From Serratia ficaria (GTDB lineage: Bacteria; Pseudomonadota; Gammaproteobacteria; Enterobacterales; Enterobacteriaceae): 64,000 nt of DNA. The notes beneath the pieces are model-generated. The model worked only from the letters and a program-made list of their open reading frames with translations. It did no database searches and was not told the DNA's origin. Within the stretch, counting starts at the first letter, position 1. Each line of letters opens with the position of its first letter. Positions 1,676 to 61,303 of the stretch are shown in pieces. The stretch lies in assembly GCF_900187015.1 (NCBI RefSeq), contig NZ_LT906479.1, positions 3,224,001 to 3,288,000 of the forward strand, given 5' to 3'. A program made the translations under genes and the position numbers.

Positions 1676-2941
1676 TTAAACGTGTGTTTGTTTCCAGGGT
1701 TTAAAGGTTAACCACAGCAGTAAACCCGGTACTTGCAGGGCGATCAGCAGGACCAGCGACCACTGGTAAGCCACCACCGGATAACTGCCGGCCACCGTGC
1801 CCCAGTTACCGATCACCGCCCCCACCAACCACTGCACGATAAATGCCAACACAAAGACCACCAGATTGAATGAAGCGCTTACCCGGCCGGCTAACGCGGG
1901 TTCAACGGACTGGGCCACAATGGCATAGTTCATGGTGGCGGCGGTGCCAAAGAAACTGAATCCCATGGTGATCACGTAAGGTGACACGGAAAGGCCACTT
2001 AACATCAGCACCTGAAACAGCACAAAAATCACTACGCCGCAGCCACAAATCATAATCGGTTGCACCGCATATTTACGCAAGTAATCCGTCAACCAGCCAA
2101 AGCCGAGCGATCCTGCAACCATCGCGACCGTACCCAGCATCAGTGCATTGGCCATCTGTCCATTGCTCAGGCCGGCAACGTCGTGCAGCCAGGGCCCCAT
2201 CCAAAGTGCCAGGATAGCCATGTAAGTCGCGTGAGCAAACACCGAATAGAGTCCCAACCGCCAGAAGGTCCATGAACGGTATAAACGGCCCACTTCACGA
2301 CACATATCGCTGAAACGCGTATTTTTCGAGATGAAAGCACCGCGTACAGAAAAGTGAATCACCACACTCACCAGCACCGTTAACCCGGCCAGCAGCAGGA
2401 ATGCATCTCGCCAAGTGATCCAGGTCAGCGCCGCGTGTAACGGCGCCGTCGAGGCCATGGCTCCCAAGCCGCCAACCGAAAGCAGACAAGCGGTACTGAG
2501 CGGCAGCCTGTCTATCGGTAACCAGATGGAGCATGCCTTGATGGCACTCATCAGGGAACCGGCAACGCCCAAGCCGATCAACCCCCGCCCAATCAACAAC
2601 CCTACCTCGCTGTGTGACAGCGCAAAAATCACTGAACCGGCGGCGGCTATCAACAGCATCGGGCTTTGTACCGAACGGGGACCATAGCGATCCAGCATGA
2701 CGCCGAGGGGCAATTGAGCGGCGGCGAACGTGAGAAAATAAACCCCGGTCAGCAACCCCAAGCTTTCCGCCGGCAGTTGAAGCTCATTGGCAAGGTCGTT
2801 ATAAATCACGGCATTCACGGTACGGTACAGGTAGGAGATAAAGTGCCCCATACCGAAGGGGATAAATATCGTTAAGAACAGCATGGCGAAGCTTTTTTTC
2901 GTCTCTTGTATCGCTACGCTAGAAACCTCTTCATTCTGCAT
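1676..2941 (-). CDS. MFS transporter of the tgl-like cluster
   Basis: This is a 421-residue major facilitator protein with about twelve hydrophobic segments and the conserved loop G(V)MLDRYGPRSV after the second helix. I start it at the ATG at 2941 because AGGAGACGACCGAGA precedes it and it then overlaps the end of the upstream LanB-like gene by 11 bases, which indicates translational coupling; the longer frame back to 3028 has no support. As the last gene of the leftward biosynthetic operon it is probably the exporter of the amino-acid-like product, although uptake or self-protection roles are equally compatible. The transported compound is inferred from context only. Confidence 0.85.
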   Translation of the reverse strand: MQNEEVSSVAIQETKKSFAMLFLTIFIPFGMGHFISYLYRTVNAVIYNDLANELQLPAESLGLLTGVYFLTFAAAQLPLGVMLDRYGPRSVQSPMLLIAAAGSVIFALSHSEVGLLIGRGLIGLGVAGSLMSAIKACSIWLPIDRLPLSTACLLSVGGLGAMASTAPLHAALTWITWRDAFLLLAGLTVLVSVVIHFSVRGAFISKNTRFSDMCREVGRLYRSWTFWRLGLYSVFAHATYMAILALWMGPWLHDVAGLSNGQMANALMLGTVAMVAGSLGFGWLTDYLRKYAVQPIMICGCGVVIFVLFQVLMLSGLSVSPYVITMGFSFFGTAATMNYAIVAQSVEPALAGRVSASFNLVVFVLAFIVQWLVGAVIGNWGTVAGSYPVVAYQWSLVLLIALQVPGLLLWLTFKPWKQTHV

Positions 2942-5363
2942 TCTCGGTCGTCTCCTGCTTAATGGGGGAGAATGTGGTACGTATCTCGCAGCAGACGCGG
3001 CCACGAGCATCGTTGAACCATAGTTCATCAGGTGTCGGTAGCATTTCCGATACCTGAATCACCCGCGCCTTCTTCAATGCCGTCGCCAGTGCGTCTAAAG
3101 AAAGTGGATTGTCGAAATCGATAAACAACGGTTTGGGTTCACTGTCACACTTGATAAATACCCAACGAGGCAGTGCCTGCCGCTGTTGCCAGTCTCTCCA
3201 TTGGATAAACGCCATGAATTCGTCAGACACCGCCTCGGGCCACCCACCGGCGTTAAACGCCCAGGTACGCCGCTTGTACAGGGTGCGATTCACACGGATG
3301 CGGCGAGGCTCGTGGCGTGGCAATACATCTCCCGCCAGTCGGAACAGCAATTGATGCAGAGAGGTGCCGCTGACACACAATAAGTCCTCGTGAAAAGCGC
3401 CGTCCATATCCTCTACGGTCAAGCGACCTGTCTTGCAATGCAGACGTGCGCGCCCCGCTGGATAACGTTTTTCAGCGGCAACGCTGCCGCCACCGCCCGG
3501 CAATATCAACTGAACATAATGGGATACCAGTGGCCAATCGATATGTGAACGCTGATAACTCTCAGGCGAGTCGGCTAATATCAGTCGTTCTCGCCCCAAT
3601 AGCGCATTAACCCCTTGGTCAATCTCTGCCGTTACGGGGCAAAACGGCGCGGCGACCGGTTGACTCAACGTATGAACCCCGGGGTGCGTCTCTCCCAGCA
3701 CCACTTGGTATTCCCCACGGTTCAATGCCTCCAGATTATCTGCTGCCAACATGAAATCCGGTGAATGGAAATCGTCACCAAATACCGGAAAATCTGCGGC
3801 CGCAGGGCATTGTTGATTCAGTGCCGCCAATACCTGTTCTAATTGCGCCGCGCTAAGTTGCAACTCTTCGGTATGCACCACGCTGAGTAACGGTTGCCAG
3901 GCTTCATTCAGCATGGTGCGGACCCGGTCGCAAACCTGTTGCTGGATCGCCGCTTGTTGCGGATGCAATAGGTGCAGAAACGCCAACAGACTGACGTCTT
4001 GCCCATCCGGACATGGCGGGATGAGCTGGTAAACATCCAACCAGGCCTGATGCAACAAAACGCCTGTAGCGCGAGTGAGCCACTGATACAACGACATAAG
4101 CGGTGCAAAATCCACATCCAGCGCTTGTTGCAACTTACGGTTAAACGTCAGGGTACTGGCGCGGGCACAATCCTCATAAACCGGATAACGCCCGACATAC
4201 ATCTTCCCACTGTCCCGCGCTAACGAAACCCCCGCATCACTCAGTGTCTGGTTCATCGCCGCCAATGCCTGCTGGCGCTGCTGTAAATCGCCGCCGGCAT
4301 AAGTTTCACGTTGTCTTTCCAAACGCTGAAAACATTCGGACCAGTGGGCAACGAAACGTTCAGGCAGCGCGGCTGTGCGCATTGCCTCTAATATCGTGGT
4401 TAACGCGGCCGGATCACGCGGCGAAAGCTGGAAACCGCGTTGCACAATGCCAGCGCTAATCAAGTGTTTAACTACCTGCCCCGGGTTGTTATCCAGACGG
4501 TCACGCAACTGTTTTTCACTGACAACGGCCATCGTCAATGCTTTCAAAACATCAAAAGTCGGGCCTGTCAAGCGGCGTGATTTACCCAACGGATAGTGCA
4601 GCACATCGCCCTGTAGATAGCAGCCAGGGTTAACCGATAACGGCAAACACATCGGTTCCGGACACTGCGCGTTTATCTGGGCAACAAGGCGTTGTATTAC
4701 CCAGCTTTCAAAAAAAGTCTTCCGCTGAGAAAGCCACGACCCCATGCTCCACTTGACATTGGCCAGCACTGTTTGCCGATCGTCAAAGCGCCCCCAGGCG
4801 ATCGGCCCAAAAAAGCTGCAGGTATCATTCTTGGTACAAAAACGTTGGGCATAACTCCACCCCAAGCGAATTTTCTGTTTTTTACGACTGTCATGGGGCG
4901 CATGACGTTCAGTGATCAGTGCATTGATTCGCTGTGCGGCATCAGGGTTAGAAATGAATATCGCTTCCGATACGTCGGCCCGAGACAGAAAATCAATCAA
5001 CTGTTGGCGTCCCTGCTCATTAAAGTTGGCAAACACGGGGCGCAGAGTAGTTTCTTGTGCCACAATCTTCGCGTTGACGTTGTGCCACTCATCGAGTGGT
5101 TGTTGCAATACATCGCGTAACGGCAACGGCAAGTCACTCACGCTCACCGCCTGTTGAGCCGCCAGTTTACGTGCGAACTTACGACACTGCACTTCCCCAA
5201 CGACGGCCATCTGCTGCTCAAATTGCTGTAATAACCGCCCACGCAATTGGTGCAGTGCCATCAGTGAGGTAAAGGCTGGCAGACTGGGGAACGACGTGGC
5301 CTGCATTAGTTGATCCGCTGGAAACCCCGCAGAACGCAACCAAAAATAATCAGCGCACCTCAT
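2931..5363 (-). CDS. tglB: Short LanB-type protein, probable peptide aminoacyl-tRNA ligase (PEARL, TglB-like)
   Basis: The 810-residue protein has the lantibiotic-dehydratase N-terminal (glutamylation) domain signature RFCTKNDTCSFFGP at about residues 174-187. No SpaB_C elimination domain follows and none is encoded separately in the cluster. Full-length dehydratases are around 1000 residues, and short forms of this size are known as PEARLs, which attach an amino acid from aminoacyl-tRNA to the C-terminus of a scaffold peptide. The scaffold encoded at 7103-7237 has almost no Ser or Thr to dehydrate, which argues for ligation. In the Pseudomonas 3-thiaglutamate pathway the enzyme TglB adds Cys; that amino acid is inferred here. 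The gene overlaps both neighbours, by 14 and 11 bases. Confidence 0.85.
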   Translation of the reverse strand: MRCADYFWLRSAGFPADQLMQATSFPSLPAFTSLMALHQLRGRLLQQFEQQMAVVGEVQCRKFARKLAAQQAVSVSDLPLPLRDVLQQPLDEWHNVNAKIVAQETTLRPVFANFNEQGRQQLIDFLSRADVSEAIFISNPDAAQRINALITERHAPHDSRKKQKIRLGWSYAQRFCTKNDTCSFFGPIAWGRFDDRQTVLANVKWSMGSWLSQRKTFFESWVIQRLVAQINAQCPEPMCLPLSVNPGCYLQGDVLHYPLGKSRRLTGPTFDVLKALTMAVVSEKQLRDRLDNNPGQVVKHLISAGIVQRGFQLSPRDPAALTTILEAMRTAALPERFVAHWSECFQRLERQRETYAGGDLQQRQQALAAMNQTLSDAGVSLARDSGKMYVGRYPVYEDCARASTLTFNRKLQQALDVDFAPLMSLYQWLTRATGVLLHQAWLDVYQLIPPCPDGQDVSLLAFLHLLHPQQAAIQQQVCDRVRTMLNEAWQPLLSVVHTEELQLSAAQLEQVLAALNQQCPAAADFPVFGDDFHSPDFMLAADNLEALNRGEYQVVLGETHPGVHTLSQPVAAPFCPVTAEIDQGVNALLGRERLILADSPESYQRSHIDWPLVSHYVQLILPGGGGSVAAEKRYPAGRARLHCKTGRLTVEDMDGAFHEDLLCVSGTSLHQLLFRLAGDVLPRHEPRRIRVNRTLYKRRTWAFNAGGWPEAVSDEFMAFIQWRDWQQRQALPRWVFIKCDSEPKPLFIDFDNPLSLDALATALKKARVIQVSEMLPTPDELWFNDARGRVCCEIRTTFSPIKQETTENAE

Positions 5364-6144
5364 GCGTTACCTCCCGCCACATCAAGGCATTTGCAGCGAC
5401 CAAACGTGCCAAAAACGGCCGGTCGCTCTCATCCAAAGGCGCTTCGGCAACGGGGGGCTGGTTAAACAATGCGGCACAACGAGGTGGTAACAATAGGTAC
5501 TTATGACGGCTGTTCAAATCCGGCAACGTCACCAGCAGGTGTTCCTCACCGGGTGGTGGCATGGCTTGCCCCAGCGTTTTTTTATCGCGCAACCACTGCG
5601 AAAGCCGAAACTGGCTGCAGTACAGACGGGCCATGCCGGTGTGAGTATAACCCGCAGTTCCCGCAACCTCAGAAAATACTCCTTGTTGCAGCGACAGATA
5701 CAACGATACCACTTGGGACTCCAGTTCCATTAAATCGACCAACGGCGCTGGCCATACGTGGTTTTTCCCGTCCGCAGTCAGCCAATTGAGGATATCCCGA
5801 CAATAGGTGTAAACACGTGGACCATAATCATACCATTGGTGCGCCTGTAAAAACTCTCGTGACAGTTGCGGCATTCCTACGCCGCGATTAAGCAGCGCTC
5901 GCAACGTCAACGGAGCACCATTTTCCAGCGCATTAATAAAGGAATTTACCAATCGGAATTGGTAGTTCTCAATAAACCACCTCGCACGATCAATATTTTC
6001 AGCATAGTCGGCAATCACCGCTTGCTCTTCCGGCGTAAATGCATCACAAATCTGGGGTTGCCATTGGCGGTCAACCAATTGTTGTTGTAACCCTTCATCG
6101 CGCAGGATCTTACGCCAGGTATGCCAGGCAATTTTAGCATCCAT
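5350..6144 (-). CDS. tglI: MNIO partner protein (TglI-like)
   Basis: This 264-residue soluble protein has no recognisable catalytic motif. It is rich in aromatic residues in its centre (WYDYGPRVYTYCRDILNW) and overlaps the MNIO enzyme gene upstream by 11 bases and the LanB-like gene downstream by 14 bases. MNIO enzymes such as MbnB and TglH work with a dedicated partner that binds the peptide substrate (MbnC, TglI), and this gene holds exactly that place. The assignment rests mainly on position and size. I did not recognise the family from sequence alone, so a divergent RiPP recognition protein is the cautious description. Confidence 0.65.
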   Translation of the reverse strand: MDAKIAWHTWRKILRDEGLQQQLVDRQWQPQICDAFTPEEQAVIADYAENIDRARWFIENYQFRLVNSFINALENGAPLTLRALLNRGVGMPQLSREFLQAHQWYDYGPRVYTYCRDILNWLTADGKNHVWPAPLVDLMELESQVVSLYLSLQQGVFSEVAGTAGYTHTGMARLYCSQFRLSQWLRDKKTLGQAMPPPGEEHLLVTLPDLNSRHKYLLLPPRCAALFNQPPVAEAPLDESDRPFLARLVAANALMWREVTHEVR

Positions 6145-7048
6145 CGCTTACCACCTGTTGACCGCTCACCGCTCGCTGCCAAATAGCCTGAGCACGCTTC
6201 ACGTCTTTGACAATCATCGACTCATCATTAGCGTCCATTATCCGCGTCAACGCATGGTGCGCCTGTCCCTGATACTCCAGCACGATGGCCGAAGGCAAGG
6301 TGCGCGACAGGAGATCTTCATACAGATCCCACACCGGCTCCGGTACGGCGGCATCGTGCCAATCGTGGTACAGACCGTCCGCCCAACTGCCACCGGCCAG
6401 ATGGACCGAAATCACGCGTTCCAGCGGTAAAGTGTCAAGATAATCAGCCAGATCGAAACTCGGAAGATTAATAGAGTTGGCATAAATATTATGTAAATCC
6501 AGATGCAAAAAAGTGCCAGAACGCTGCACCAAACGAGCAAGAAACTCTGCTTCACGCATTTCTGCTCCGGGACAAGGCAGATAATAAGCGGCATTCTCAT
6601 GGGCCAACGGCATACCATAACGTTGTTGCAATTCAGCGGCGCGATCGGCGCAACGGATCACTTCTCGCTGTGAAAACTGCAGTGGGCTGCTCCAAATATC
6701 CAACCAGGAATCATCACCGTAAAAGCAGTGGTTAGCCACCCATGGGCTGTTGATCATCTTGGCCAATGGAATATGCCGCTGCACCGCGGCAGTGCTGGCC
6801 AAAGGATTAAAGCCAAAATCGCAACCATAGTTTGAATGCGCCAATAGAGTGAAACGTTCACCAAGTTTCTCCAACGTCGCACGCATTTCCGGGCGCATAA
6901 TATGCGGCCCGTCCAGTGGCGCCATAATGTTATCTAACAGTATCTCCAACAAATCGACGTGCAAGGTTTCAAAAGGAAACCAGTCCAGTATTTCTGGGTT
7001 ATATTGAATACCCACTCCAACTACCGTGGGTTTTGCCATTATAGTCAT
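6134..7048 (-). CDS. tglH: MNIO / DUF692 multinuclear iron oxidative enzyme (TglH-like)
   Basis: The protein carries the metal-ligand blocks of the DUF692 TIM-barrel family: HSNYGCDFGF, HENAAYYLP, DLHNIYANS and HLAGG, in family order. These enzymes use a di- or tri-iron centre and O2 to remodel peptide residues, usually Cys; MbnB makes oxazolones and TglH excises the beta-carbon of a C-terminal Cys. Here the likely substrate is the scaffold peptide after C-terminal Cys addition. An ATG at 7048, an upstream GTG at 7057 and an ATG at 7039 are all possible starts; I list 7048. It sits 54 bases downstream of the scaffold gene, with a strong hairpin between them, and overlaps the partner gene. Confidence 0.88.
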   Translation of the reverse strand: MTIMAKPTVVGVGIQYNPEILDWFPFETLHVDLLEILLDNIMAPLDGPHIMRPEMRATLEKLGERFTLLAHSNYGCDFGFNPLASTAAVQRHIPLAKMINSPWVANHCFYGDDSWLDIWSSPLQFSQREVIRCADRAAELQQRYGMPLAHENAAYYLPCPGAEMREAEFLARLVQRSGTFLHLDLHNIYANSINLPSFDLADYLDTLPLERVISVHLAGGSWADGLYHDWHDAAVPEPVWDLYEDLLSRTLPSAIVLEYQGQAHHALTRIMDANDESMIVKDVKRAQAIWQRAVSGQQVVSDGC

Positions 7049-7076
7049 ATCGTCCACAATCCCCGTCGGAACAAAG

Positions 7077-7096
7077 CTGCCCTGTTTCCAGGGCAG
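7077..7096 (-). promoter_or_regulatory. Intercistronic hairpin behind the scaffold peptide gene
   Basis: CTGCCCTG and CAGGGCAG form a perfect 8-bp stem with a 4-nt loop, seven bases after the scaffold stop codon. On the transcribed strand it is followed by CTTTGTT, a weak U-rich tract. This is the arrangement of a partial terminator or RNA-stabilising hairpin that lets a carrier peptide be made in excess of its enzymes. Confidence 0.6.
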
Positions 7097-7102
7097 TAGT
7101 GT

Positions 7103-7237
7103 TTATGCAAAGACTTTGCTTTCAATCACTTCGATATCATCCAGATCAAACTCTTCAAACAGATTATCTACCTGCTCATCCGCAGGCTGTTGCTCCACAA
7201 CTTGGTTTTGTTCATTTTCTTTCATTTCAGGTTTCAT
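7103..7237 (-). CDS. tglA: 44-aa pearlin-type scaffold (precursor) peptide, TglA-like
   Basis: A 45-codon frame runs from ATG 7237 to TAA 7103, preceded by TAAGGAGAACCTG, a strong ribosome site whose TAA is the stop of the upstream protease gene. The peptide begins MKPEMKENEQNQ, is very acidic, contains FDLDDIEVIE like RiPP leader peptides, and ends ESKVFA. It has no Cys, no Thr and a single Ser, so there is no core region for lanthionine, azole or methanobactin chemistry. This is what a recyclable scaffold that receives an amino acid at its C-terminus should look like. It lies between the protease and the MNIO enzyme. Family membership is inferred from cluster content and shape. Confidence 0.85.
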   Translation of the reverse strand: MKPEMKENEQNQVVEQQPADEQVDNLFEEFDLDDIEVIESKVFA

Positions 7238-7247
7238 CAGGTTCTCC

Positions 7248-8366
7248 TTAGGGCAATAGACGAAAAATCATCATGGCAATCCCGCACCAGGCCAGCACCC
7301 AGCCTAATGCGGTGAACAAGCTTACTAACCAATAGAGACGGCTATTTTTATCATCTTCAGTAGACTTACCTACCAGACGTTGGCGGCAGTAACGCAACGC
7401 ACGTTGCCGCAAACGGGGTTGGTTAAACAATTCAGTCAACGCGAGGTAGGTATCACCGTTGAAAATTGGCAACAGCGTAGGTATTAATGACAGGCAGGAG
7501 GCGACGATCATCACGACCGCCATATCATGGAACGGCGAGCCGACTCCCGTTATTCCCCATATAACAATGCCCACCGCTGCATAATAAAAACTGGCGGCAG
7601 GGCCCATCAGGATGGTGATTGCTCGTTTTCCGGGACTCAGTGCGGACCATGTCCGTTGTTCCGGCCTGACCCAGCCAGTCGCCAATAACGTATACACGCC
7701 GATGCCAAAATCAGTAACACGCACGCGGTAATGACGACAACTCAGCGCATGCCCTAATTCATGGATAGCGATAGAACTCAATATTACCGGATAGTGCCAA
7801 GCCAACCATAACCAGCTTTGAGTGTAGGTTGTCATGACGTCTCGGCTAAACTGCGGCCATTGGCTGAACAAAAGCCCAAAGGCCCCTCCCACAGCAAACA
7901 GCAACAATGCGTTAAACAGTGGGGCACACACCCATGGCACCCGACGGTAGAGACTATCCAAACCACTTTGCGGGTTCATTTTCACTAGGGTGATCAGCAA
8001 AAAACGTTTCAGCGGGCCATAGGTAATACCGGTGGCAGGGTCGCGCTTGAGGCCGCCACGTTGACCGCTATGCGTCAATAAGCCCAGTTGCAATAAACGT
8101 GTTTGAAATGCGACCAGCTTTGACAAGGTGATGGTCGCTTGCAAACGATCCTGCGCCGCCCATTGCACCTGCTCCACAGTACGCTCACCGTTAAACAATC
8201 GCGCTAAAGCAAGTTCAGTTTTGCCAAGTTCATAAGCGATGTCATTTTGGGGATCATAAATACGGAATTTCGGCTTTTCATTTCCCACTACCGGTTCACA
8301 AATCAGTTCATCGCGATATTTGCAGGGAGCGGGTGTCGCTGCTATCGGTATTATGCTATCGCTCAT
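7248..8366 (-). CDS. tglG: Membrane M50-type metalloprotease with PqqD-like N-terminus (TglG-like)
   Basis: The protein has 372 residues. Residues ~33-90 (FRIYDPQNDIAYELGKTELA onward) resemble a PqqD-like peptide-binding domain. Several membrane helices follow, with HELGH at 202-206 and FNGD at 302-305, the zinc ligands of site-2-type M50 proteases. In the 3-thiaglutamate pathway a membrane protease of this type (TglG) cleaves the finished amino acid from the scaffold and regenerates it, and the N-terminal domain here would hold the scaffold. The start at 8366 overlaps the upstream methyltransferase stop by four bases (ATGA), and its own stop codon overlaps the ribosome site of the scaffold gene. 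Confidence 0.87.
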   Translation of the reverse strand: MSDSIIPIAATPAPCKYRDELICEPVVGNEKPKFRIYDPQNDIAYELGKTELALARLFNGERTVEQVQWAAQDRLQATITLSKLVAFQTRLLQLGLLTHSGQRGGLKRDPATGITYGPLKRFLLITLVKMNPQSGLDSLYRRVPWVCAPLFNALLLFAVGGAFGLLFSQWPQFSRDVMTTYTQSWLWLAWHYPVILSSIAIHELGHALSCRHYRVRVTDFGIGVYTLLATGWVRPEQRTWSALSPGKRAITILMGPAASFYYAAVGIVIWGITGVGSPFHDMAVVMIVASCLSLIPTLLPIFNGDTYLALTELFNQPRLRQRALRYCRQRLVGKSTEDDKNSRLYWLVSLFTALGWVLAWCGIAMMIFRLLP

Positions 8367-9274
8367 GCGGCCCCCATAGTTTCAAACCAAGGCCGATAAA
8401 ACTGCTGCAACCGGTTACGCCCGGTTACGCAGACAGCTGAAAATACCGTACTGTCCGCACGACCGAACCGACCTAGCACAAAAACAGCCCCCGGCCTTGT
8501 CGGCCCGCATAGCGGTGTTTCCGTGGTTAAGATCGGCGTCCAACCATGTTTGAGCATCAACAGCTCAATACTGTGCGGAGTCAAAAAACGCCGATGATTG
8601 TGGGTCAGATAACCCTGCTGCATGCCATAGCCCAACGCACGACCTTCGATCAACAGCAATCCTTGCGTTTTCGCCATGGCTTGGCATTTTTCCATCACCT
8701 GATTGACGTCATAGACATGTTCTAGTGAACCGTTAATTATAATCAGATCCGCTTGTTCATCTGCGGTCATTTCTTCAGCGCTGACCGTATCAATATTCAA
8801 CCCTAGCGCTTTTCCATACTGGGCATAAGCGCTATCCGGATCGTTTCCCTTTACATGCCAACCTCGTTTGGCGAACGGGATCATTAATCCACCAGCAGCA
8901 CAGCCCACATCGACCAGTCGTCCCCGTTCGGGTAACCATTGACTTAGGTTCTTGTAGAGGTAATCACCCCGTTTGATTTGATCCAGGAAAAACATTTTAT
9001 CTGGCACATCATCGCCGAATAAATTCAAACGATAAAATTTATCGTAATAGTCTTGATAAAACTGAGCGTCAAAACGATATGCTTGGTAAATATGTCCACA
9101 TTGACTACAGCCGACTATTGGCAACGCGACGGTGTTTTCATGTGGCCCGCGGACGTACGTCAATAAAGTCAAACAGGCCGTTGAGCTACAGATTTCACAC
9201 GCAACGTGCGTTGCCTGATAATCTTGTCGCATTTGCAATAAACTCAGATAATGCCGTACGGATCTGATATCCAT
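8363..9274 (-). CDS. tglF: Class I SAM methyltransferase-fold enzyme, probable carboxymethyl transferase (TglF-like)
   Basis: An N-terminal zinc ribbon (CEIC at about residues 25-28 and CSQC at about 57-60) precedes a Rossmann methyltransferase domain with motif I LVDVGCAAGG and a later LIIINGSLEHVYD segment. Because the neighbouring gene is a CmoA homologue that should make carboxy-SAM, the likely reaction is transfer of a carboxymethyl group to a thiol on the scaffold C-terminus, as TglF does in Pseudomonas. Plain methyl transfer is the alternative. I use the ATG at 9274; a TTG at 9280 is in frame and closer to GGGATAAA. It is 15 bases downstream of the cmoA-like gene and overlaps the protease gene by 4 bases. 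Confidence 0.75.
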   Translation of the reverse strand: MDIRSVRHYLSLLQMRQDYQATHVACEICSSTACLTLLTYVRGPHENTVALPIVGCSQCGHIYQAYRFDAQFYQDYYDKFYRLNLFGDDVPDKMFFLDQIKRGDYLYKNLSQWLPERGRLVDVGCAAGGLMIPFAKRGWHVKGNDPDSAYAQYGKALGLNIDTVSAEEMTADEQADLIIINGSLEHVYDVNQVMEKCQAMAKTQGLLLIEGRALGYGMQQGYLTHNHRRFLTPHSIELLMLKHGWTPILTTETPLCGPTRPGAVFVLGRFGRADSTVFSAVCVTGRNRLQQFYRPWFETMGAA

Positions 9275-9289
9275 TTCCAATTTATCCCA

Positions 9290-10039
9290 TCACTTAATAC
9301 AGAAGAATCCTTCGAAACAGATATGTTTAAAAATGGTCATCACATCCAAAAATCCGGCGCGATTAAGCATATCTTGGTTACCTGCCGCGGAAAACGGTTC
9401 GAGAACTCCCTTTAGGGAACGCGACTTGGCCAAGATCTCATGCGCGGCATACCCTTGCTCAACTTTGTAATCAACATACAGACTACTGATGATGTCCTGA
9501 AAACGGGCATCGGGACCGCGTACCTTTTCAAATAGCACGAAGGCACCACCCCAGTTGAGGCTTTGGTAAATACGATCGAGCAATTGTTGGCGAACACACG
9601 GAGGAATAAACTGCACAGTGTAATACGCAACGATAAAATCGCTTTTTTCATACGGAAAGTTCAGAATATCATCCGTAAGAAAGCTCACATTTTTATTTTC
9701 CGCATGTTCGGCAAGCTGAATAGTGGCCTGTTGTGTCATGGCTTCTTCAATATCAATACCAACGAATTTGGCACCCAGGGGATGGCGTTTGGCCAGTTTG
9801 CGGGTTAAGGCCCCCGTTGAGCTTCCAAGCTCATAAACAACGGAGTTTTTATTGATAAAGAAATCACTAAGCGAAAGAATAAGCTCGTGCCCATCATGAT
9901 ATTTAGGTACCGATTTCGAGACATGAGAGTCAAAATTCTTTGGGGTGTTACCGCCAAAACTCCATGCTGCATTTAAAGAATCGATCCCATCACCCACATG
10001 GTCCAAAGACGACTCGGTTACACTGTCCATACTCGTCAT
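9290..10039 (-). CDS. CmoA-like carboxy-SAM synthase homologue of the cluster
   Basis: The 249-residue protein follows E. coli CmoA through much of its length: VYELGSSTGALTRKLAKRH for the SAM site, TVQFIPPCVRQQLLDRIYQ, LNWGGAFVLFEK and a C-terminal NRAGFLDV. An Arg near residue 207 in AKSRSLK lines up with the Arg of CmoA's QKRSMLENV segment that contacts the carboxylate of carboxy-SAM. CmoA converts SAM and prephenate to carboxy-SAM. No tRNA-modifying CmoB is adjacent, and the gene opens the biosynthetic operon, so it probably supplies carboxy-SAM for the neighbouring transferase. The alternative start is the ATG at 10030. Confidence 0.8.
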   Translation of the reverse strand: MTSMDSVTESSLDHVGDGIDSLNAAWSFGGNTPKNFDSHVSKSVPKYHDGHELILSLSDFFINKNSVVYELGSSTGALTRKLAKRHPLGAKFVGIDIEEAMTQQATIQLAEHAENKNVSFLTDDILNFPYEKSDFIVAYYTVQFIPPCVRQQLLDRIYQSLNWGGAFVLFEKVRGPDARFQDIISSLYVDYKVEQGYAAHEILAKSRSLKGVLEPFSAAGNQDMLNRAGFLDVMTIFKHICFEGFFCIK

Positions 10040-10307
10040 GACGCCCCATCAAGAATGATAATAAATTGTTAGCAATGTAAATATTATTTATCATTTTAAG
10101 AGTTCTTAATCAATGACCACGCCTGATTTATTTTTTTTGCTTTACTTTCAAATACAATGAAGCAGCTCCACGCGCACCGTCATTATTAATATATTCATTT
10201 TTATTATATTAATTGACTGTAATATTTACCAACCTCCAATCATAAAAATAAAAATTATATATGCATATCTTTATATAACCAATTTCATGATGTCTTTTGC
10301 CAAGGAC
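10040..10307 (-). promoter_or_regulatory. AT-rich upstream region of the tgl-like operon
   Basis: No gene is visible in this stretch, which is strikingly AT-rich compared with the flanking chromosome. On the minus strand TTGATT (10113-10108) and TAAATA (10090-10085), 17 bases apart, form a plausible sigma-70 promoter about 45 bases upstream of the cmoA-like start. GAATGATAATAAATTGTTA at 10053-10071 contains AATGATAAT and could be a weak Fur site; this is speculative. Confidence 0.4.
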
Positions 10308-10380
10308 ATCGCCACGTTGCGGTGCCGCATCTCGTCCTTGACCTTGAACATAAGGTGCGCTCATCGGCAAGCCCAAAGCC
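10308..10380 (-). pseudogene. Degenerate internal fragment of umuC
   Basis: This 73-base stretch is a diverged copy of 11722-11793 within umuC, in the same orientation. CGCCACGTTGCGG and CGCATCTCGTCCTTGA are shared, with scattered substitutions and one inserted base. It directly precedes the fhuE fragment, in the same order as the intact genes. Confidence 0.8.
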
Positions 10381-10390
10381 GGACCAAAGG

Positions 10391-10556
10391 GACCATATGC
10401 ACTAGCTTAGAAGCGGTAGTTGGCGGTGACGGCGAAATTGCGCGGCGCGCCGTAGACCACATAGCGGTCAACCGAGGTGTCGTAAGTTTTATCGAACGGG
10501 TTGTTCAGGTTAGCCTGCACCGACAGCTGTGGGGTGACCTTATAGTGCCCAAACAG
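10391..10556 (-). pseudogene. Duplicated 3'-terminal fragment of fhuE
   Basis: These 166 bases align without gaps to 12131-12296, the last ~50 codons of fhuE plus its downstream flank, with nine mismatches by eye (about 95 percent identity). The copy stops at CCCAAACAG and runs straight into the duplicated SDR 3' end, sharing only a few bases at the junction. It is not translatable as a gene. Confidence 0.9.
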
Positions 10557-10654
10557 CAAGCACATTCCGGCGAATGCGTGAATAACGGCCCATGCGCGCT
10601 ACTGGCGATCGGCTCCGGCTAGCGGCGCCGGTGCTCTGAGGTCCCCCGAGGGGC
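10555..10654 (+). repeat. Right copy of the 100-bp perfect direct repeat
   Basis: The sequence is identical to 1414-1513, including the final 27 bases of the SDR coding sequence, which are non-functional here. It lies between the fhuE fragment and umuC, and the umuC frame reads into it to a stop at 10599-10601. Confidence 0.92.
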
Positions 10655-11927
10655 TTCCCCCCTCCAGCCGCGCCCGCGGAATGTCCGCCAGCCGGGTGGT
10701 GTAGGCCGGCGACAGCATTTCACGCTTCATCTGCCAGGGCTTGACGATGCCCTGGCCGGCGAACCAGACGCGACCGCGCCCTTCCCGGTTCAGCTTGTCC
10801 AGCGTCGCCATCAGTTGGCCGCTGTTGCGCCGCGGCGGGCAGTCGTCGAACAGGTCGATCTGCGCCATGGCGCCGGCGCTGAAATCCCCCAGCATCACGC
10901 CGCCCTTCAGGTAACGGCGCCCTTCCTGCCAAATGCTATCCAGCGCGCGCACCGCCATGGCGATGATGTCGCGGCTGTCGTTGCTCGGGGTGCGCAGCCG
11001 GGCGGTGCCCACATTGCTGTAGTACCCCTCGCCCGCCGAGTGCGGGCTGGTTTTGATAAACACCGACACGTTGCGGCAATAGCGCTCGTCCTGGCGCAGC
11101 TTTTCCGCCGCGCGTTCCGCGTAGCTGCAGATCGCTTCGCGCATATGCGGGTAGTGCGTCAGGCGCTGGCCGAACGAACGCGAACAAATGATCTGCTCCC
11201 TGGCCGCCGCCTGATCCTCCAGCTGCAGGCAGGATCCGCCGCGCAGCTCGCGCACCGTGCGCTCCAGCACCACGCCGAAGGTTTTGCGCGCCAGGCGGGT
11301 ATCGCAGTCCGCCAGCTGCAGCGCGCTGTGAATGCCCATCGCCTGCAGCTGCCGGGTCAACCGGCGGCCGACGCCCCACACCTCTTCCACCGGGATCAGC
11401 GCCAGCAGCCTGCGCTGGCGAGCCGGGTCCGACAAATCCACCACCCCGCCGGTTTTACGCCATCTCTTGGCGGCGTAATTGGCCAGCTTGGCCAGCGTCT
11501 TGCTCGGCGCAATGCCCACGCCGACCGTCAAATGCAGCTCCCGCTGGATCCTGTCGCGCACCTGTTGGCCAAACCGCTCCAGCGCCACGCCGCGGCCCAA
11601 CCCGTCCAGCCGCAGAAAGGCTTCGTCCAGCGAATAAATCTCCACCGCCGGCGCCATCTCTTCCAGGGTATCCATCACCCGGCGAGACATGTCGGCATAC
11701 AGCGCGTAGTTGGAAGAGAATACCGCCACGTTGCGGCGACGCATCTCGTCCTTGATCTTGAAATAAGGCGCGCCCATCGGCACGCCAAGCGCCCTGGCCT
11801 CGGCGCTGCGGGCGATCACGCAGCCGTCGTTGTTCGAGAGCACAATCACCGGCCGCCCCTTCAGGTCCGGCCGGAACACCGTCTCGCAGGAGGCGTAAAA
11901 GCTGTTCACATCCACCAGGGCGAACAT
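10599..11927 (-). CDS. umuC: UmuC, catalytic subunit of DNA polymerase V (altered C-terminus)
   Basis: This Y-family polymerase opens MFALVDVNSFYASCE with the first catalytic Asp and contains EIYSLDEAFL with the catalytic Asp-Glu pair, then the ERTVRELRG little-finger region. It extends lesions during SOS mutagenesis together with UmuD'2. I start at 11927 by family alignment; an ATG at 11963 is an alternative. After SPAYTTRLADIPRAR, where UmuC normally ends, the frame continues for about 20 residues (EGGSPSGDLRAPAPLAGAD) through the 100-bp repeat, so the original stop was lost at the junction. A LexA-like site lies about 75 bases upstream. It is separated from umuD by fhuE. Confidence 0.9.
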   Translation of the reverse strand: MFALVDVNSFYASCETVFRPDLKGRPVIVLSNNDGCVIARSAEARALGVPMGAPYFKIKDEMRRRNVAVFSSNYALYADMSRRVMDTLEEMAPAVEIYSLDEAFLRLDGLGRGVALERFGQQVRDRIQRELHLTVGVGIAPSKTLAKLANYAAKRWRKTGGVVDLSDPARQRRLLALIPVEEVWGVGRRLTRQLQAMGIHSALQLADCDTRLARKTFGVVLERTVRELRGGSCLQLEDQAAAREQIICSRSFGQRLTHYPHMREAICSYAERAAEKLRQDERYCRNVSVFIKTSPHSAGEGYYSNVGTARLRTPSNDSRDIIAMAVRALDSIWQEGRRYLKGGVMLGDFSAGAMAQIDLFDDCPPRRNSGQLMATLDKLNREGRGRVWFAGQGIVKPWQMKREMLSPAYTTRLADIPRARLEGGSPSGDLRAPAPLAGADRQ

Positions 11928-12002
11928 CTTATCTGCCGCCCAGGCCGGTGAACGGGCGCGCATCGCTTCTCTTTCGCATGTTGTCACACACCATAAAAAA
12001 AA

Positions 12003-12022
12003 TATGTACATATATACAGTAT
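12003..12022 (-). promoter_or_regulatory. LexA-like operator upstream of umuC
   Basis: On the minus strand the site reads ATACTGTATATATGTACATA: a perfect CTGT half site, an AT-rich centre and ACAT in place of ACAG. It lies 75-95 bases upstream of the umuC start, indicating SOS control of umuC independent of umuD. Confidence 0.7.
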
Positions 12023-12146
12023 TTTGATTTTTGCAGTAATGATCAAGCGGAAGAAAGGATAAACGGGCTATCAACCTGATGCCGTTTGAAATTTAGTTGG
12101 GCCAGAGGGGGGAGGAATGGCCCCTCGCGGGGCCATAGGCACTAGC

Positions 12147-14360
12147 TTAGAAACGGTAGTTGGCGGTGACGGCGAAATTGCGCGGCGCGCCGTAGACCAC
12201 ATAGCGGTCAACCGAGGTGTCGTAAGTTTTATCGAACAGGTTGTTCAGGTTCGCCTGCACCGACAGCTGCGGGGTGACCTGATAACGCCCAAACAGGTTG
12301 ACCAGCGCATAGCTGCCCTGCTCGGCCCGCAGGGTGCCGTTCCCTTCCGGGCCGCTGACGTCCTGCCACACGTGGGTCTGCCAGTTGATGCCGCCGCCCA
12401 GCGTCAACGCTCTCAGCGTCGGCGGGTTATAGGCCGTGAACAGCTTGACCGTCGTGCGCGGCAACGCCGGGTTGACCGCGTTTCCTTCGCTGTCTTCCGC
12501 CACATAGCGGGTGGCGCCGAAGGTCATTTGCAGGTTATCGGTCACTGCGCCGTTCACTTCGAACTCGATGCCTTTGCTGACCGAGCCTTGCGCACCGTAG
12601 TAAGCCGTTTCCAGGGTGCCGGGGATCACCGCGCCGGTGCTTTGCGCCACGTTGTCCTGCTCGATGCGGAATATCGCCACTGAGCCGGTCAACCGACTGT
12701 TCAGCCAGTCGGCTTTTAGCCCCGCCTCATAGTTCTTCCCGGTAATCGGCGACAGGTAATTGCCGCCGCTGTCGCGGTAAGTTTGCGGTTTGAACACCGA
12801 AGTGTAGCTGGCGTAGGCTGACCAGGTATCGTCGATGTCGTACACCAGCCCGGCGTAAGGCGTGACATTGTTCTTCTCCATATTTTGGCTCAGGGTGCTG
12901 GTGCTCCACTGGGTATAACGCGCGCCGACGATCAGATGCAGCGGATCCGCCAGCGAAATGCGGGTCGCGGTATAAGCCGACTTCTGGTGAATGGTATCCT
13001 CCTGCGCCAGGCTCAACGCATTCCAGTCGGTCTCGGGAAAATCCCCGCCCCAGTGATTGAAGTTGCCCACGTCTGACGGCGAGAGATTGGCGAAGGCGTT
13101 GAGATAGCGATTGTTCTGCCTGCTGTAGCTGACGCCGGCCATCAGCTGGTGCTGGCGCCCGAACAGCGCGTACGGCCCGCTGGCGAACGCATCGACGGCG
13201 TGCACCTTGCGCGTTCCGGTGTTGTAGCCCGTGCCGCCGACCACCGGATAATTCGCGTAAGGGCTGACGCCGATGCCGGTGTTTTTATCGAAGTAGCCGT
13301 CGATATACAGCATTTTGCTGTCGAGACGGGTTTCCGTATCGGCGCCGTTCAGCGTGAACTGCCAGCCATTATCAAAACGTTGCTTCAACGTGGCGAACAG
13401 CTTTCGCGATTGCTTATCGTTGTAGGCCCAGTCGGGCGCAGTGTTGAATTCACGATCGTAATGCGTTTTGCTGCCGTCGCTGTACCACCGCGGCATCCCT
13501 CCCCAGGTGGGGCTGTTGGCGTTGGTTTTCTGATAGTCGTAACCGACGGAGAGCGTCGTGGAGTCGGTCAGATCGGCATCCACCACCCCATAGAAAAATG
13601 TCTTGTCGGCGCTGTAGCGATCGACATAGCTGTCGTTGCCCTGATACCCGGCGACCACGCGGCCGCGCACCCTGCCGGACTCGCTCAGCGGTGCGGAAAG
13701 GTCCGCCACATAGCGCTGCTTATTCCAACTGCCATAGCTGGCGGAAACGTTGCCGACAAACTCGCGGCTGTCGGCATGCTTGCGCACCATGTTCACCGCA
13801 GCGGAAGGATTGCCGGCGCCGGTCATCAGGCCGGTCGCGCCGCGCACCACTTCAATGCGTTCGTAGATCGCGGTATCGGCCGACGAATCGCCCAAATTCC
13901 AGCGCTCTTCAAACTGGGTGGGAATACCGTCAACCATATAGTTGTCGATCAAGAAACCGCGCGAATAAAAGGTACTGCGGTCAAGGTCCGCCACCTTTTC
14001 GGTGACGCCGGTGGTGTTTTTCAGCGCATCCCCCAGCGTCTGCAACTGCTGATCCTGCATGCGCTGTTTGCTGATAATGCTGACGGACTGCGGTATGTCG
14101 CGCGCGGTCAGGGCCATTTTGGTGCCCGCCCGGGTTATCGGCACGCTGTAGTCGTTTTCCCCCGTCTCGCCGGCGCTCTCGGCCGAGGCTTCGACCAGCA
14201 GGGTATCTTCTTTTGCCCCGGCCTCTGCGGCGCAAGCATAAGGCGCCTGCAGCGCCACCGCGACGAATGCGGCAACGCCGGTGAGTGATGAAACATGGAT
14301 TTTACGGGATGCCGAACCGCCGGCGCGATCCCCTTTGCTATGGCATGGAGCCAGAAACAT
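12147..14360 (-). CDS. fhuE: FhuE-type TonB-dependent receptor for coprogen / hydroxamate siderophores
   Basis: The mature part matches E. coli FhuE closely: GENDYSV, AGTKM, RDIPQSVSIISKQRMQDQQL in the plug, DNYMVDGIPT, ERIEVVRGATGLMTGAGNPS, and a beta-barrel ending NYRF with the terminal aromatic. The 737-residue precursor begins with a long basic signal region followed by a hydrophobic stretch ending ACAAEAGA. I chose the ATG at 14360 because GAGGGTAAAGTC precedes it; the frame is open to 14441. It imports ferric coprogen or rhodotorulic-acid-type siderophores through the outer membrane using TonB. A Fur-like site lies upstream. It interrupts umuD and umuC, and its 3' end is duplicated at 10391-10556. 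Confidence 0.92.
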   Translation of the reverse strand: MFLAPCHSKGDRAGGSASRKIHVSSLTGVAAFVAVALQAPYACAAEAGAKEDTLLVEASAESAGETGENDYSVPITRAGTKMALTARDIPQSVSIISKQRMQDQQLQTLGDALKNTTGVTEKVADLDRSTFYSRGFLIDNYMVDGIPTQFEERWNLGDSSADTAIYERIEVVRGATGLMTGAGNPSAAVNMVRKHADSREFVGNVSASYGSWNKQRYVADLSAPLSESGRVRGRVVAGYQGNDSYVDRYSADKTFFYGVVDADLTDSTTLSVGYDYQKTNANSPTWGGMPRWYSDGSKTHYDREFNTAPDWAYNDKQSRKLFATLKQRFDNGWQFTLNGADTETRLDSKMLYIDGYFDKNTGIGVSPYANYPVVGGTGYNTGTRKVHAVDAFASGPYALFGRQHQLMAGVSYSRQNNRYLNAFANLSPSDVGNFNHWGGDFPETDWNALSLAQEDTIHQKSAYTATRISLADPLHLIVGARYTQWSTSTLSQNMEKNNVTPYAGLVYDIDDTWSAYASYTSVFKPQTYRDSGGNYLSPITGKNYEAGLKADWLNSRLTGSVAIFRIEQDNVAQSTGAVIPGTLETAYYGAQGSVSKGIEFEVNGAVTDNLQMTFGATRYVAEDSEGNAVNPALPRTTVKLFTAYNPPTLRALTLGGGINWQTHVWQDVSGPEGNGTLRAEQGSYALVNLFGRYQVTPQLSVQANLNNLFDKTYDTSVDRYVVYGAPRNFAVTANYRF

Positions 14361-14528
14361 GACTTTACCCTCAGGCATTTTTATTATGTTTGATTGGCTG
14401 AATGAAGATACGGCGCACTCAGCCGGTTTTCCCTGTCCCAATAATGAGTTACCGCCCCAGGCATCACTCCGACGTTGATAACCTTCCCTGCTGACGCGTT
14501 AATGCCCGCCGAAGCGATCATTAATACG

Positions 14529-14547
14529 AATGAGAACTATAAGCATT
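14529..14547 (-). promoter_or_regulatory. Possible Fur box upstream of fhuE
   Basis: AATGAGAACTATAAGCATT is an imperfect palindrome with AATG and CATT ends, similar to the Fur 19-mer, 170 bases upstream of the chosen fhuE start. The match is partial, and the main support is that fhuE genes are normally iron-regulated. Confidence 0.4.
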
Positions 14548-14676
14548 TTAATCGTTAGTGTAAAAGAGTATTACCGGCCTCAGGGCGGTGCCCTGCGCGG
14601 CAGACGGTGCGGGGGAGGAGAAACGGAGGCACAGGCCGATCGCATCGCCTTTGAAGGCTGGCCCGGCCGCTTAACC

Positions 14677-14901
14677 TTAACTTCCCTGACGATCGAGCAT
14701 GTTAAGGTCCGGCGTTCTTTTGGACTCATCATTGAAGACGACAAGGCACCATGAGCGTTTATCTGGCTTGTTTAGGATACGTTTCACCCGCTTGCGGGGT
14801 TTCGGCAGGGTGCGTTTTGATTGGAGTTTAGCGTGTCTTACCAGTGAAAATATGGAAAAAGCGAACAAGAGCAATGCGATAATTATCCCTGAAAAATCCA
14901 T
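14677..14901 (-). CDS. Small single-span membrane protein, unknown function
   Basis: This 74-residue frame begins MDFSGIIIALLLFAFSIFSL, one clear membrane helix, followed by a strongly basic stretch (KLQSKRTLPKPRKRVKRI) and a soluble tail. The positive residues after the helix favour an N-out, C-in topology. TTGGAATGAAA precedes the ATG at 14901, and a second ATG lies at 14907. I do not recognise the family. It sits between umuD and fhuE in the region where the umuDC operon has been split, on the same strand as both. It may be a real small protein, but a chance frame is not excluded. Confidence 0.4.
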   Translation of the reverse strand: MDFSGIIIALLLFAFSIFSLVRHAKLQSKRTLPKPRKRVKRILNKPDKRSWCLVVFNDESKRTPDLNMLDRQGS

Positions 14902-15090
14902 TTTCATTCCAATTTGCTGTCCTTTGCGTGGAGCTCACTATTATCTCTTTCGTTTTTATTTTCAAAAAGTTATTTGTAAACAGGATTATTCCAAGATATT
15001 CCATTGATATATCCTAGCCAGTAACCTTTAGCCGAGAACGTTTATCTTGGCGCTTTAGGGTATTAACCGCACTCACCGCCAGGCGCGCGA

Positions 15091-15133
15091 AAACCTCCCG
15101 GTTAATTTCATGATTAAAATGAAAGCCGGGAGG
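15091..15133 (-). terminator. Terminator after umuD
   Basis: CCTCCCGG (15094-15101) pairs with CCGGGAGG (15126-15133), and on the minus strand the stem is followed by TTTTCGCG. It starts seven bases past the umuD stop codon, so umuD appears to be transcribed alone. Confidence 0.55.
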
Positions 15134-15139
15134 CCGGCG

Positions 15140-15493
15140 CTATGTCGCGGCGTAGACGATAAACGTCACCACGCCGAAGATTTCCAGCTGCGTTTCGTCG
15201 CCGAAAACCATCGGCGCGTAGGCCGGATCCATCGGCAACAGCCGCAAATCCGGGTGGCGCTGCAGCCTCTTGACGGTGAACTCGCCGTCTACGGCGGCGA
15301 TAACGATATTGCCATGCTCCGGCGTCAGCGCGCTGTCGACGATCAGCAGATCGCCATCCTGAATATTGCCGTCGATCATCGAATCGCCGCTGGCGCGCAC
15401 AAAGTAGGTGGCGTTGGGATGCCGCACCAGCAGTTTGCCGATATCCAACCGGCTTTCGACGTAGTCCTGCGCCGGGGAAGGAAAACCGCCCAT
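15140..15493 (-). CDS. umuD: UmuD, probably encoded directly as the processed UmuD' form
   Basis: The protein matches UmuD from the cleavage site onward: [11 protein letters not shown], the catalytic Ser in [10 protein letters not shown] and the catalytic Lys in [10 protein letters not shown]. The ATG at 15493 has a strong site, AAAGGGGGTAACT, and yields 117 residues starting MGGFPSP; E. coli UmuD' starts GFPSP and has 115 residues. Upstream in frame there are only CTG and TTG codons without a ribosome site before a TGA, and the Cys-Gly cleavage pair is Gly-Gly. The regulatory N-terminal arm thus seems absent. It would form Pol V with UmuC without needing RecA-stimulated cleavage. A consensus LexA box lies 149 bases upstream. 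Confidence 0.85.
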
Positions 15494-15641
15494 AGTTACC
15501 CCCTTTGTCTCAACAGAAAACGGCGACGGCAACCGCAGTCATGGCTCCCGGGGGCGTTTGCCGGCATATCCCCCCCTGGTCCGCATAGTCGGTGTCGCAA
15601 AAATGCCCCTTGTCCCCCATAGGGAGTTTCAACTTATCCAA

Positions 15642-15661: not shown

Positions 15662-16193
15662 ATTCATGTTGTGACGAGGATCAAGCCGCTTGCCGGGCAC
15701 CAGTCAGAACGCATTGAAATGCACGATGATTTAGTTACCCCCCCCTGGACAACCATGGGCCTTCGAGCGGCGGCCTGCCGCCGATTCTTTTACCCCTGAC
15801 GCTGTCGCCGGATTATTAATAAAAATGTATTTTCCCGCTTTTGTTTCGCCAACAGTCGCAGCCTCAGCAACAGAGCAATCAATATTCCCCCAGCGCCAAG
15901 ATAATAATAATTATCAATCTCGTTTAATTTTCAGCACATTAACGCCTGCAGATGAAAACTATCCCGCCGCGAAACTGAGCTAACCTTAGTATGTCAGTGT
16001 GAACATTATTCCTATGTTCAAGACCGCCACAATGAAAAATGAAGGGGAATATAACGTCAGGTCACCCGCTTTTTAGCTCCATGGGCTGCAGTTTTGTGTT
16101 GATTACCTGTGAGATTGTTCCATGGACCCTGTTTCGCTCATGACCATCTGGAACATCGGATTGGCAATTTGGTAATACTGAGGGGTGTTAACA
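15662..16193. other. Intergenic region between umuD and the first cio operon
   Basis: There is no convincing gene in these 530 bases. A 17-codon hydrophobic frame, MDPVSLMTIWNIGLAIW, lies at 16122-16175 just upstream of cioA; it has only a weak ribosome site (GTGAGATTGTTCC) and I do not call it a gene. The region must hold the promoter of the cio operon, but I see no clear FNR or ArcA site. Confidence 0.5.
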
Positions 16194-17618: not shown

Positions 17619-17619
17619 C

Positions 17620-21362: not shown

Positions 21363-21671
21363 TATTGCCTCCGACACAGCTCACGATAAATGCAGGTGTT
21401 TTATTAACCGCTAATGGGTTGTACTGATTGATATTAGAATTATCGTCCACGGCCGATTGCCGGCCCGGCTACAGCCAGGCCCAAGCCTGTTGATCATTAT
21501 AGATGAGTACTGCCAACCTTAATGCGGCTTCTGCTTCGATTCTTCGCCCGTCGCCGTCGCTGCGGGACAATCGGCATCGCCTAAGGGAGGTTTTGCATGA
21601 GGGAAAGAGAGCTCGCTAATGGCCCTGAGCGCGGCCCGGCCACTAGCGAGTGAGTACAGCGGCAAGGCTAA

Positions 21672-27534: not shown

Positions 27535-27535
27535 A

Positions 27536-61023: not shown

Positions 61024-61050
61024 GCCGTGGTCAAACGACAGGCACAAAAA

Positions 61051-61073
61051 AACCCGCCTTGGCGGGTTTTTAT
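61051..61073 (-). terminator. Terminator of the cold-shock gene
   Basis: AACCCGCC and GGCGGGTT form an 8-bp stem with a TT loop, with T-rich flanks on both strands, 23 bases beyond the stop codon. Confidence 0.85.
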
Positions 61074-61090
61074 TAATCAGCGGAAGCCGA

Positions 61091-61303
61091 TTAGATAGCG
61101 GTAACGTTAGCCGCTGATGGACCTTTAGCACCGTTCTCGATAGAGAACTGTACGTTCTGGCCTTCTGCCAGGGTCTTGAAGCCTTGATCCTGGATTGCAG
61201 AGAAGTGTACGAACACGTCTTTGCTGCCGTCTGCCGGAGTGATGAAACCAAAACCTTTAGACTCGTTGAACCACTTCACTTGACCTTTGATCATGTTAGA
61301 CAT
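61091..61303 (-). CDS. Cold-shock domain protein, CspC/CspE type
   Basis: The 70-residue protein contains KGFGFITP (RNP1) and DVFVHFSAI (RNP2) and ends ANVTAI. It resembles CspC and CspE of E. coli about equally: [20 protein letters not shown] as in Csp[12 protein letters not shown] as in CspE. It binds single-stranded RNA and DNA and acts as a chaperone or antiterminator. The ATG is preceded by GAAGGAAATTAGAC. Confidence 0.95.

Follow-up and report, generated by a model that had tools for sequence, protein, structure and literature searches.

A tgl-type gene cluster, most likely for 3-thiaglutamate, in a Serratia-like enterobacterium

Introduction

The closest described system to the operon studied here is the tgl cluster of Pseudomonas syringae pv. 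maculicola ES4326 (PMC9016710, PMC10880893). In the relevant passages of the published accounts, TglB cysteinylates a carrier peptide, TglHI excises the beta-carbon of the added cysteine, TglE and TglF carry out carboxymethylation, and TglG releases the product (PMC9016710, PMC9303977, PMC10491745). Herein, we analysed a stretch of 64,000 nucleotides from Serratia ficaria (contig NZ_LT906479.1; hereafter the window), which holds an operon with the same activities and, as far as the passages on TglA give it, the same tail of the carrier peptide TglA. The host of the ES4326 cluster is P. syringae, whereas that of the window is a Serratia-like enterobacterium.

A second described system is the tmo cluster of Tistrella mobilis, which makes 3-thiahomoleucine. 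According to the parts of PMC9303977 that describe it, it has in common with the window a peptide aminoacyl-tRNA ligase (PEARL), a DUF692 enzyme, a partner with a recognition element (RRE) for ribosomally synthesized and post-translationally modified peptides (RiPPs), a protease, a carrier, and a transporter. It differs in using a cobalamin radical S-adenosylmethionine (SAM) enzyme and a methyltransferase, whereas the window has the CmoA-like TglE together with TglF. Among the 3-thiaglutamate papers listed (26 of 29), titles and abstract openings name no enterobacterial cluster, and the 3-thiaglutamate passages of three papers that also hold the word "Serratia" tie the compound to Pseudomonas (PMC8868522, PMC12822146, PMC10491745).

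Results

The window holds an eight-gene operon in the order of Pseudomonas tgl loci

The tgl operon occupies window positions 1676-10039 on the minus strand, with the transcription order tglE-F-G-A-H-I-B-transporter, and there is no stop codon inside any of the eight frames. An earlier note on this DNA had described an eight-gene leftward operon and read it as a tgl-type pathway. The operon is confirmed and the reading is supported: all frames are real, open, and on the minus strand, each gene has a tgl counterpart, and the order equals that of the Pseudomonas loci. The genes are listed in transcription order:

tglE, 9290-10039, minus strand: predicted CmoA-like carboxy-SAM synthase of 249 amino acids, with relatives in the same place elsewhere
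tglF, 8363-9280, minus strand: predicted carboxymethyltransferase of 305 amino acids with an N-terminal CxxC...CxxC ribbon; translation may begin two codons further in, at an ATG
tglG, 7248-8366, minus strand: M50 membrane metalloprotease with HELGH (Pfam M50, 1.3e-10)
tglA, 7103-7237, minus strand: carrier peptide of 44 amino acids ending in FEEFDLDDIEVIESKVFA (NCBIfam NF038377; P. syringae tail)
tglH, 6134-7057, minus strand: DUF692/MNIO iron oxidase of 307 amino acids, matching PDB 8hci chain D
tglI, 5350-6144, minus strand: partner protein, matching PDB 8hci chain C
tglB, 2931-5363, minus strand: PEARL of 810 amino acids with Lant_dehydr_N
MFS transporter, 1676-3028, minus strand: Pfam MFS_1, 2e-33; likely start near 2941, overlapping the end of tglB

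Pfam gave Peptidase_M50, MbnB_TglH_ChrH, Lant_dehydr_N, and MFS_1 on the window proteins. It found no further tailoring enzyme among the eight, and no radical SAM protein, unlike the 3-thiahomoleucine cluster; no departure from the 3-thiaglutamate branch was seen among them. Three of the eight proteins were tried with PADLOC as parts of a defence system without a match. Four were compared with PHROGs as proteins of phage origin, and TglE alone matched, to two methyltransferase families. An Rfam scan returned no match inside the operon.

Gene order was compared across 24 loci, namely L002-L024, the 23 loci with DUF692 relatives, and a locus of G093, the other enterobacterial genome, which was taken at first as the short stretch L030 and later as L069; five Acinetobacter loci, at 28-30% identity, were kept outside this comparison. 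The order E-F-G-A-H-I-B recurred in 16 of the 24 loci (L002-L014, L019, L023, and L069), which excludes chance. Besides G093, these are the tgl loci of other Pseudomonas, Oxalobacteraceae, and Trinickia. The remaining eight were rearranged or had genes missing within the stretch fetched: E followed B in L015; E, F, and G followed B in L017, where TglA had no match; neither E nor F was matched in the fetched stretch of L016, L018, and L024; and the fetched stretches of L020-L022 had no match to the ligase, TglF, or the protease. A transporter gene came next after tglB in 10 of the 24 loci, and the window MFS protein is 60-74% identical to it. No MFS gene was found beside tgl in L002, L010, L014, L019, and L023, and the contig of L013 ends at tglB. 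Homology to these relatives begins near position 2941 of the window, so the MFS start is more likely to lie there.

Conservation of the carrier tail and of catalytic residues

The 44-residue TglA peptide scored 52.8 bits with the NCBIfam model NF038377 (TglA), above the cut-off of 45, and only weakly with the TmoA model (32.1 against 70). P. syringae TglA has 50 amino acids, and its residues 33-50 equal the last 18 residues of window TglA at 18 of 18 positions. A single-residue alanine scan of P. syringae TglA for TglHI names residues 33-50 individually in the part of the paper that reports it (PMC9016710), and the identical tail covers the residues of that scan. The same 18-residue tail was present in 5 of the 19 other loci with a TglA relative (L002, L005, L010, L012, and L069), and the ending ESKVFA in 17 of the 19. 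The F(N/D)LD motif and the C-terminal alanine are both found in window TglA, as FDLD and as the terminal ESKVFA. The peptide contains one serine, no threonine, and no cysteine.

Window TglH matched the solved structure of P. syringae TglH (8hci chain D) with an E-value of 1.2e-167 and 560 bits over TglH residues 4-292. It keeps all nine iron ligands (His74, His110, Glu154, Asp187, Asn190, His219, Asp232, His234, and Glu261), and Asn73 of P. syringae TglH is kept as window Asn76 (offset 3 in a gapless alignment); these ligands and Asn73 are named in the relevant passages of PMC10880893. Window TglI, which is 45% identical to the P. syringae protein P0149, matched 8hci chain C with an E-value of 1.2e-59. 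In TglG, residues H202, E203, H206, and D305 were invariant in 22 aligned rows. The M50 membrane protease with HELGH that the earlier note had named is supported by the Peptidase_M50 match and the invariant HExxH motif, and TglG is a predicted protease.

Window TglB is 44-46% identical over its full length to the protein in the same place in ten Pseudomonas loci (L002-L011), with 45% to the P. cerasi protein. According to the passages of PMC11962472 on the P. cerasi protein, whose numbering is used there, TglB Arg10, Glu542, Glu801, and Arg803 are important for phosphorylation or ligation. Window Arg10, Glu793, and Arg795 align with TglB Arg10, Glu801, and Arg803, and were invariant in 21 rows.

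Several observations weigh against the tgl assignment. For TglH, NCBIfam matched only other MNIO models, all under their cut-offs; TglI reached 256.4 bits with its own model, below the equivalog cut-off of 450; and no NCBIfam model matched TglB. The position aligned with TglB Glu542 was Asp in 21 of 21 rows, although strain numbering may differ here; BhaBC-Trp is described with Asp558 at the same place (PMC11962472). In CmoA, Arg199 is reported to hold the carboxylate of carboxy-SAM in a salt bridge (passage in PMC3663124); window TglE has Ser at this place and Arg one residue later. As the P. syringae TglI structure was still matched at 1.2e-59, the NCBIfam cut-off is, in our opinion, too strict for the branch of the window.

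The analysis establishes that the genes of the window cluster are present, open, orthologous to tgl genes, and arranged like them, and that the carrier tail and catalytic residues are kept. We conclude with high confidence that the operon is a tgl biosynthetic gene cluster with the 3-thiaglutamate pathway. The pathway is of a known type, and what is new is its bearer.

A stem-loop follows tglA

The gap between tglA and tglH (window 7057-7102) contains, directly after tglA, the following feature, which was returned by a terminator scan:

stem-loop, 7077-7096, minus strand: eight pairs and a 4-nt loop

The scan returned nine sites in total, which is not above the shuffle level. The gap itself folded at -20.7 kcal/mol, an energy reached by none of 200 shuffles. 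Across 18 such gaps (L016 and L018, which have no short gap, were excluded), the energy was attained by no more than 5 of 200 shuffles in eight, those of the window, L002, L006, L008, L009, L010, L015, and L023. The hairpin thus stands out in the window and is not shown to be general across loci. It possibly sets the level of the carrier above that of the enzymes.

The cluster is rare in its family and related TglI proteins form a supported clade

A TglH of more than 60% identity was present in 2 of 197 genomes (host included), and in a sample of 392 genomes spread evenly over the family, two had a TglH match at an E-value of 1e-60. The bearers in both samples were the host and G093, which is of a different genus and 87% identical. 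Carriage on plasmids was considered and rejected, since no plasmid DUF692 protein of at least 60% identity occurred among 332 plasmid records with a match. In the protein database there were 46 TglI relatives, including those of Xenorhabdus sp. 12 (77%) and Enterobacter ludwigii (67%). A TglI tree of 47 rows was built, from which P0122, the window's own protein, was left out and in which the G093 row was trimmed to the homologous start. Rooted at the midpoint, with long branches on some distant rows, it placed the window in a 16-row clade (support 100/99) with Xenorhabdus and E. ludwigii; the sister clade (98/97) has 17 rows, and those with a name are Pseudomonas. The home is known for only 4 of the 16 rows (window, G093, Xenorhabdus, and E. 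ludwigii), so "enterobacterial" is extended to the rest by inference.

The cluster could be silent or a mere passenger in its host, though open in sequence, which is compatible with the tgl assignment of what it encodes. Such a state would fit its rarity in the family, a G+C content lower than that of the surroundings, flanks that hold scraps of duplicated genes, and the lack of a regulator among the eight proteins. Considering that all frames are open with the catalytic residues kept, and that related TglI proteins persist in the 16-row clade, we regard it as rather improbable.

TglE and TglF depart from printed expectations

At the place of tglE, the loci of Pseudomonas, Oxalobacteraceae, Trinickia, and G093 have a gene with 63-78% identity to it. 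With the NCBIfam CmoA model, window TglE reached 139.6 bits, below the cut-off of 193.3. The host genome also has a chromosomal CmoA, so that TglE is a second CmoA-like protein; the two are 28% identical over 250 aligned positions. CmoA and CmoB are enzymes of tRNA modification. In nine printed rows of the 21 TglE rows aligned, the column of CmoA Arg199 was Ser, Thr, or Ala, and the next residue was Arg, Lys, or Ser.

Window TglF is 55-64% identical to its counterparts in the Pseudomonas, Oxalobacteraceae, and G093 loci and 46-49% to those of Trinickia. The zinc ribbon that the earlier note had seen in this second methyltransferase was confirmed, as CxxC...CxxC occurred in 18 of 19 aligned rows, that is, in all 18 covering the region (row 19 begins past it). 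TIGR00452 (CmoB) had five matches in the host genome, none of which was window TglF, and BLAST against the host CmoB gave nothing better than an E-value of 0.12. A profile alignment of the 19 TglF rows with CmoB covered the methyltransferase core alone (CmoB 123-271; probability 86.6, E-value 4.4e-6), which is all that the two have in common; the CmoB N-terminal region with Lys91 lay outside it. In its passages on these enzymes, a review describes TglE/F as highly identical to CmoA/B and CmoB Lys91 as conserved in TglF (PMC10491745). Pseudomonas is represented in this comparison by P. cerasi, whose TglF belongs to the same family as that of the window. As aligned here, window TglF and TglE thus appear to run contrary to what is printed on CmoB likeness with Lys91 and on CmoA Arg199. 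In the P. cerasi record itself (L005), an in-frame stop interrupts tglF (L005:7706-8599) downstream of the zinc ribbon, so its cluster is probably broken.

These departures would also suit an operon that builds a different thia-amino acid, in which the early steps are shared, TglF moves a plain methyl or other group, and TglE makes no carboxy-SAM. Neither Arg199 at the aligned place of TglE nor CmoB likeness beyond the methyltransferase core of TglF is conserved, and the sibling tmo pathway, as far as it is described, diverges once the early steps are passed. But TglE and TglF are 77% and about 59% identical to the copies of P. cerasi, which we take to belong to the P. syringae group, and the eight proteins include no extra tailoring enzyme. 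In the passages concerned, moreover, P. syringae TglE is reported to make carboxy-SAM, working like CmoA (PMC10491745), and TglE with TglF to carboxymethylate (PMC9016710). We therefore consider a different product very unlikely and 3-thiaglutamate the most likely product of the window cluster.

The Lant_dehydr_N match of TglB might point to a true dehydratase and a class I lanthipeptide-type system, but this reading can be dismissed with near certainty: Pfam listed no elimination-domain family for TglB at an E-value of 0.1 (the earlier note had likewise described a LanB-like protein without elimination domain), the PEARL residues are present, the full-length resemblance is to the ligase of other tgl loci, no solved structure, and hence no solved dehydratase, matched at an E-value of 0.001, and the peptide offers a single serine with no threonine or cysteine. 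The grouping with true dehydratases that the earlier note had named as refuting its reading is not supported by these comparisons.

The cluster lies in an insertion beside umuC

Compared with G028, whose umuC match was the best among the relatives, the host carries an insertion of some 11.7 kb (about window -1097 to 10594) between gene X and umuC, in agreement with the small island proposed before. It contains a hydrolase, an epimerase, and tgl; these names, like umuC, umuD, and TonB-receptor-like, are those we presume from the translations of the flanking genes. Of the three relatives fetched, G028 alone showed this empty site; in G017 the left flank and umuC are separated by about 3.5 kb of other DNA, and in G005 the left flank was not seen in the stretch fetched. 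The G+C content drops to 0.43-0.55 within the cluster, from about 0.6 in the DNA to its left and right. Pfam found no integrase or transposase among the eight operon proteins, and a tRNA-targeted island was rejected as there is no tRNA gene in the window. The following features flank the cluster:

direct repeat, left copy, 1414-1516: 103 bp at the end of the epimerase-like gene, a copy of the umuC 3' end; 99% to 10555-10657
direct repeat, right copy, 10555-10657: 103 bp, 99% to 1414-1516; the pair brackets tgl
umuC fragment, 10303 to about 10373, minus strand: scrap of the duplicated neighbour to the right of tgl (within 10303-10556)
copy of the TonB-receptor-like 3' end, 10389-10556, minus strand: 95% to 12129-12296

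The repeat and scraps look as if tgl had entered a duplicated copy of umuC.

Further along, a TonB-receptor-like gene separates the umuC-like and umuD-like genes (window 10599-15532), which are adjacent in G028; L078 and L079 have about 5.4 kb between them, and the place is perhaps an insertion hotspot. Other parts of the window hold two two-gene sets in opposite orientation that are alike by eye (16185-18627 and 26527-28945), presumably cytochrome bd oxidase subunits. There are also three large oxidoreductases close together that we take to be of the FdhF/YdeP kind (19068-21377, 29079-31391, and 32309-34588), and among these lie genes that seem FdhD-like (23122-23955) and MoaA-like (25312-26298). 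One RNA feature was found far from the cluster:

cspA thermoregulator RNA, 61044-61483, minus strand: 213.4 bits (gathering score 78)

Sister clusters combine TglH, TglI, and TglE relatives without a ligase match

L020, L021, and L022 have relatives of TglH (53-54%), TglI (26-28%), and TglE (59-62%). The stretches fetched for L020 and L022 had no match to PEARL or TglG, and contained a radical SAM enzyme (Pfam on the L020 protein alone), a protein with a methyltransferase domain, and, before the MNIO gene, a small open reading frame with Cys in alanine-rich heptads; L021 is cut at that place. The set recurs on plasmid plas2 of Burkholderia stagnalis (L085), where the TglI part and the methyltransferase protein form one fusion and the Cys-heptad peptide has 77 residues.

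sister clusters, L020:9635-15930, L022:9692-15874, and L085:7728-13873: TglH-like MNIO, TglI-like part, TglE-like predicted carboxy-SAM synthase, methyltransferase, radical SAM enzyme, and Cys-heptad peptide

Matches to the sister MNIO at an E-value of 1e-60 or better numbered 375 proteins (120 of them listed), a set that may include TglH proper. No description of this family was found in the literature searched, which covered the main text of PMC12452194 in part and mostly lay outside subscription papers. The sister clusters are a possible new RiPP family.

Discussion

We infer each reaction and the product of the window cluster from Pseudomonas biochemistry. With ATP and Cys-tRNA, TglB would add cysteine to the C-terminal alanine of the 44-residue TglA. 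TglHI, as an O2-dependent multi-iron enzyme, would then remove the cysteine beta-carbon as formate and join the sulphur to the alpha carbon, after which TglF would carboxymethylate the thiol with carboxy-SAM made by TglE. The membrane M50 protease TglG would free 3-thiaglutamate and return TglA for another round, and the MFS protein would probably export the product. Export, expression, and a biological role are presumed for this host.

Taken with the sister clusters, the locus suggests a wider proposal, which we advance tentatively and consider doubtful as a whole. TglH-TglI-TglE may be an exchangeable module that also works without carrier and ligase, with the sister clusters building 3-thiaglutamate-like residues into a ribosomal peptide. 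The PEARL and RiPP pathways might then have a common origin, with the free-amino-acid version carried beyond plant-associated pseudomonads by the enterobacterial branch (window, Xenorhabdus, and E. ludwigii). The sister family may apply the same chemistry to ribosomal cysteines.

An enterobacterium carries in full a pathway that was elucidated in a plant pathogen, and related TglI proteins occur in others, one of them a Xenorhabdus, an insect-associated genus. The near-constant carrier tail, set against divergent TglI and TglB, provides natural variants for studying peptide recognition, and two printed statements, on TglE and TglF, deserve to be checked again. The finding opens the question of whether 3-thiaglutamate serves as a mimic in plant signalling or acts more generally as a glutamate antimetabolite.

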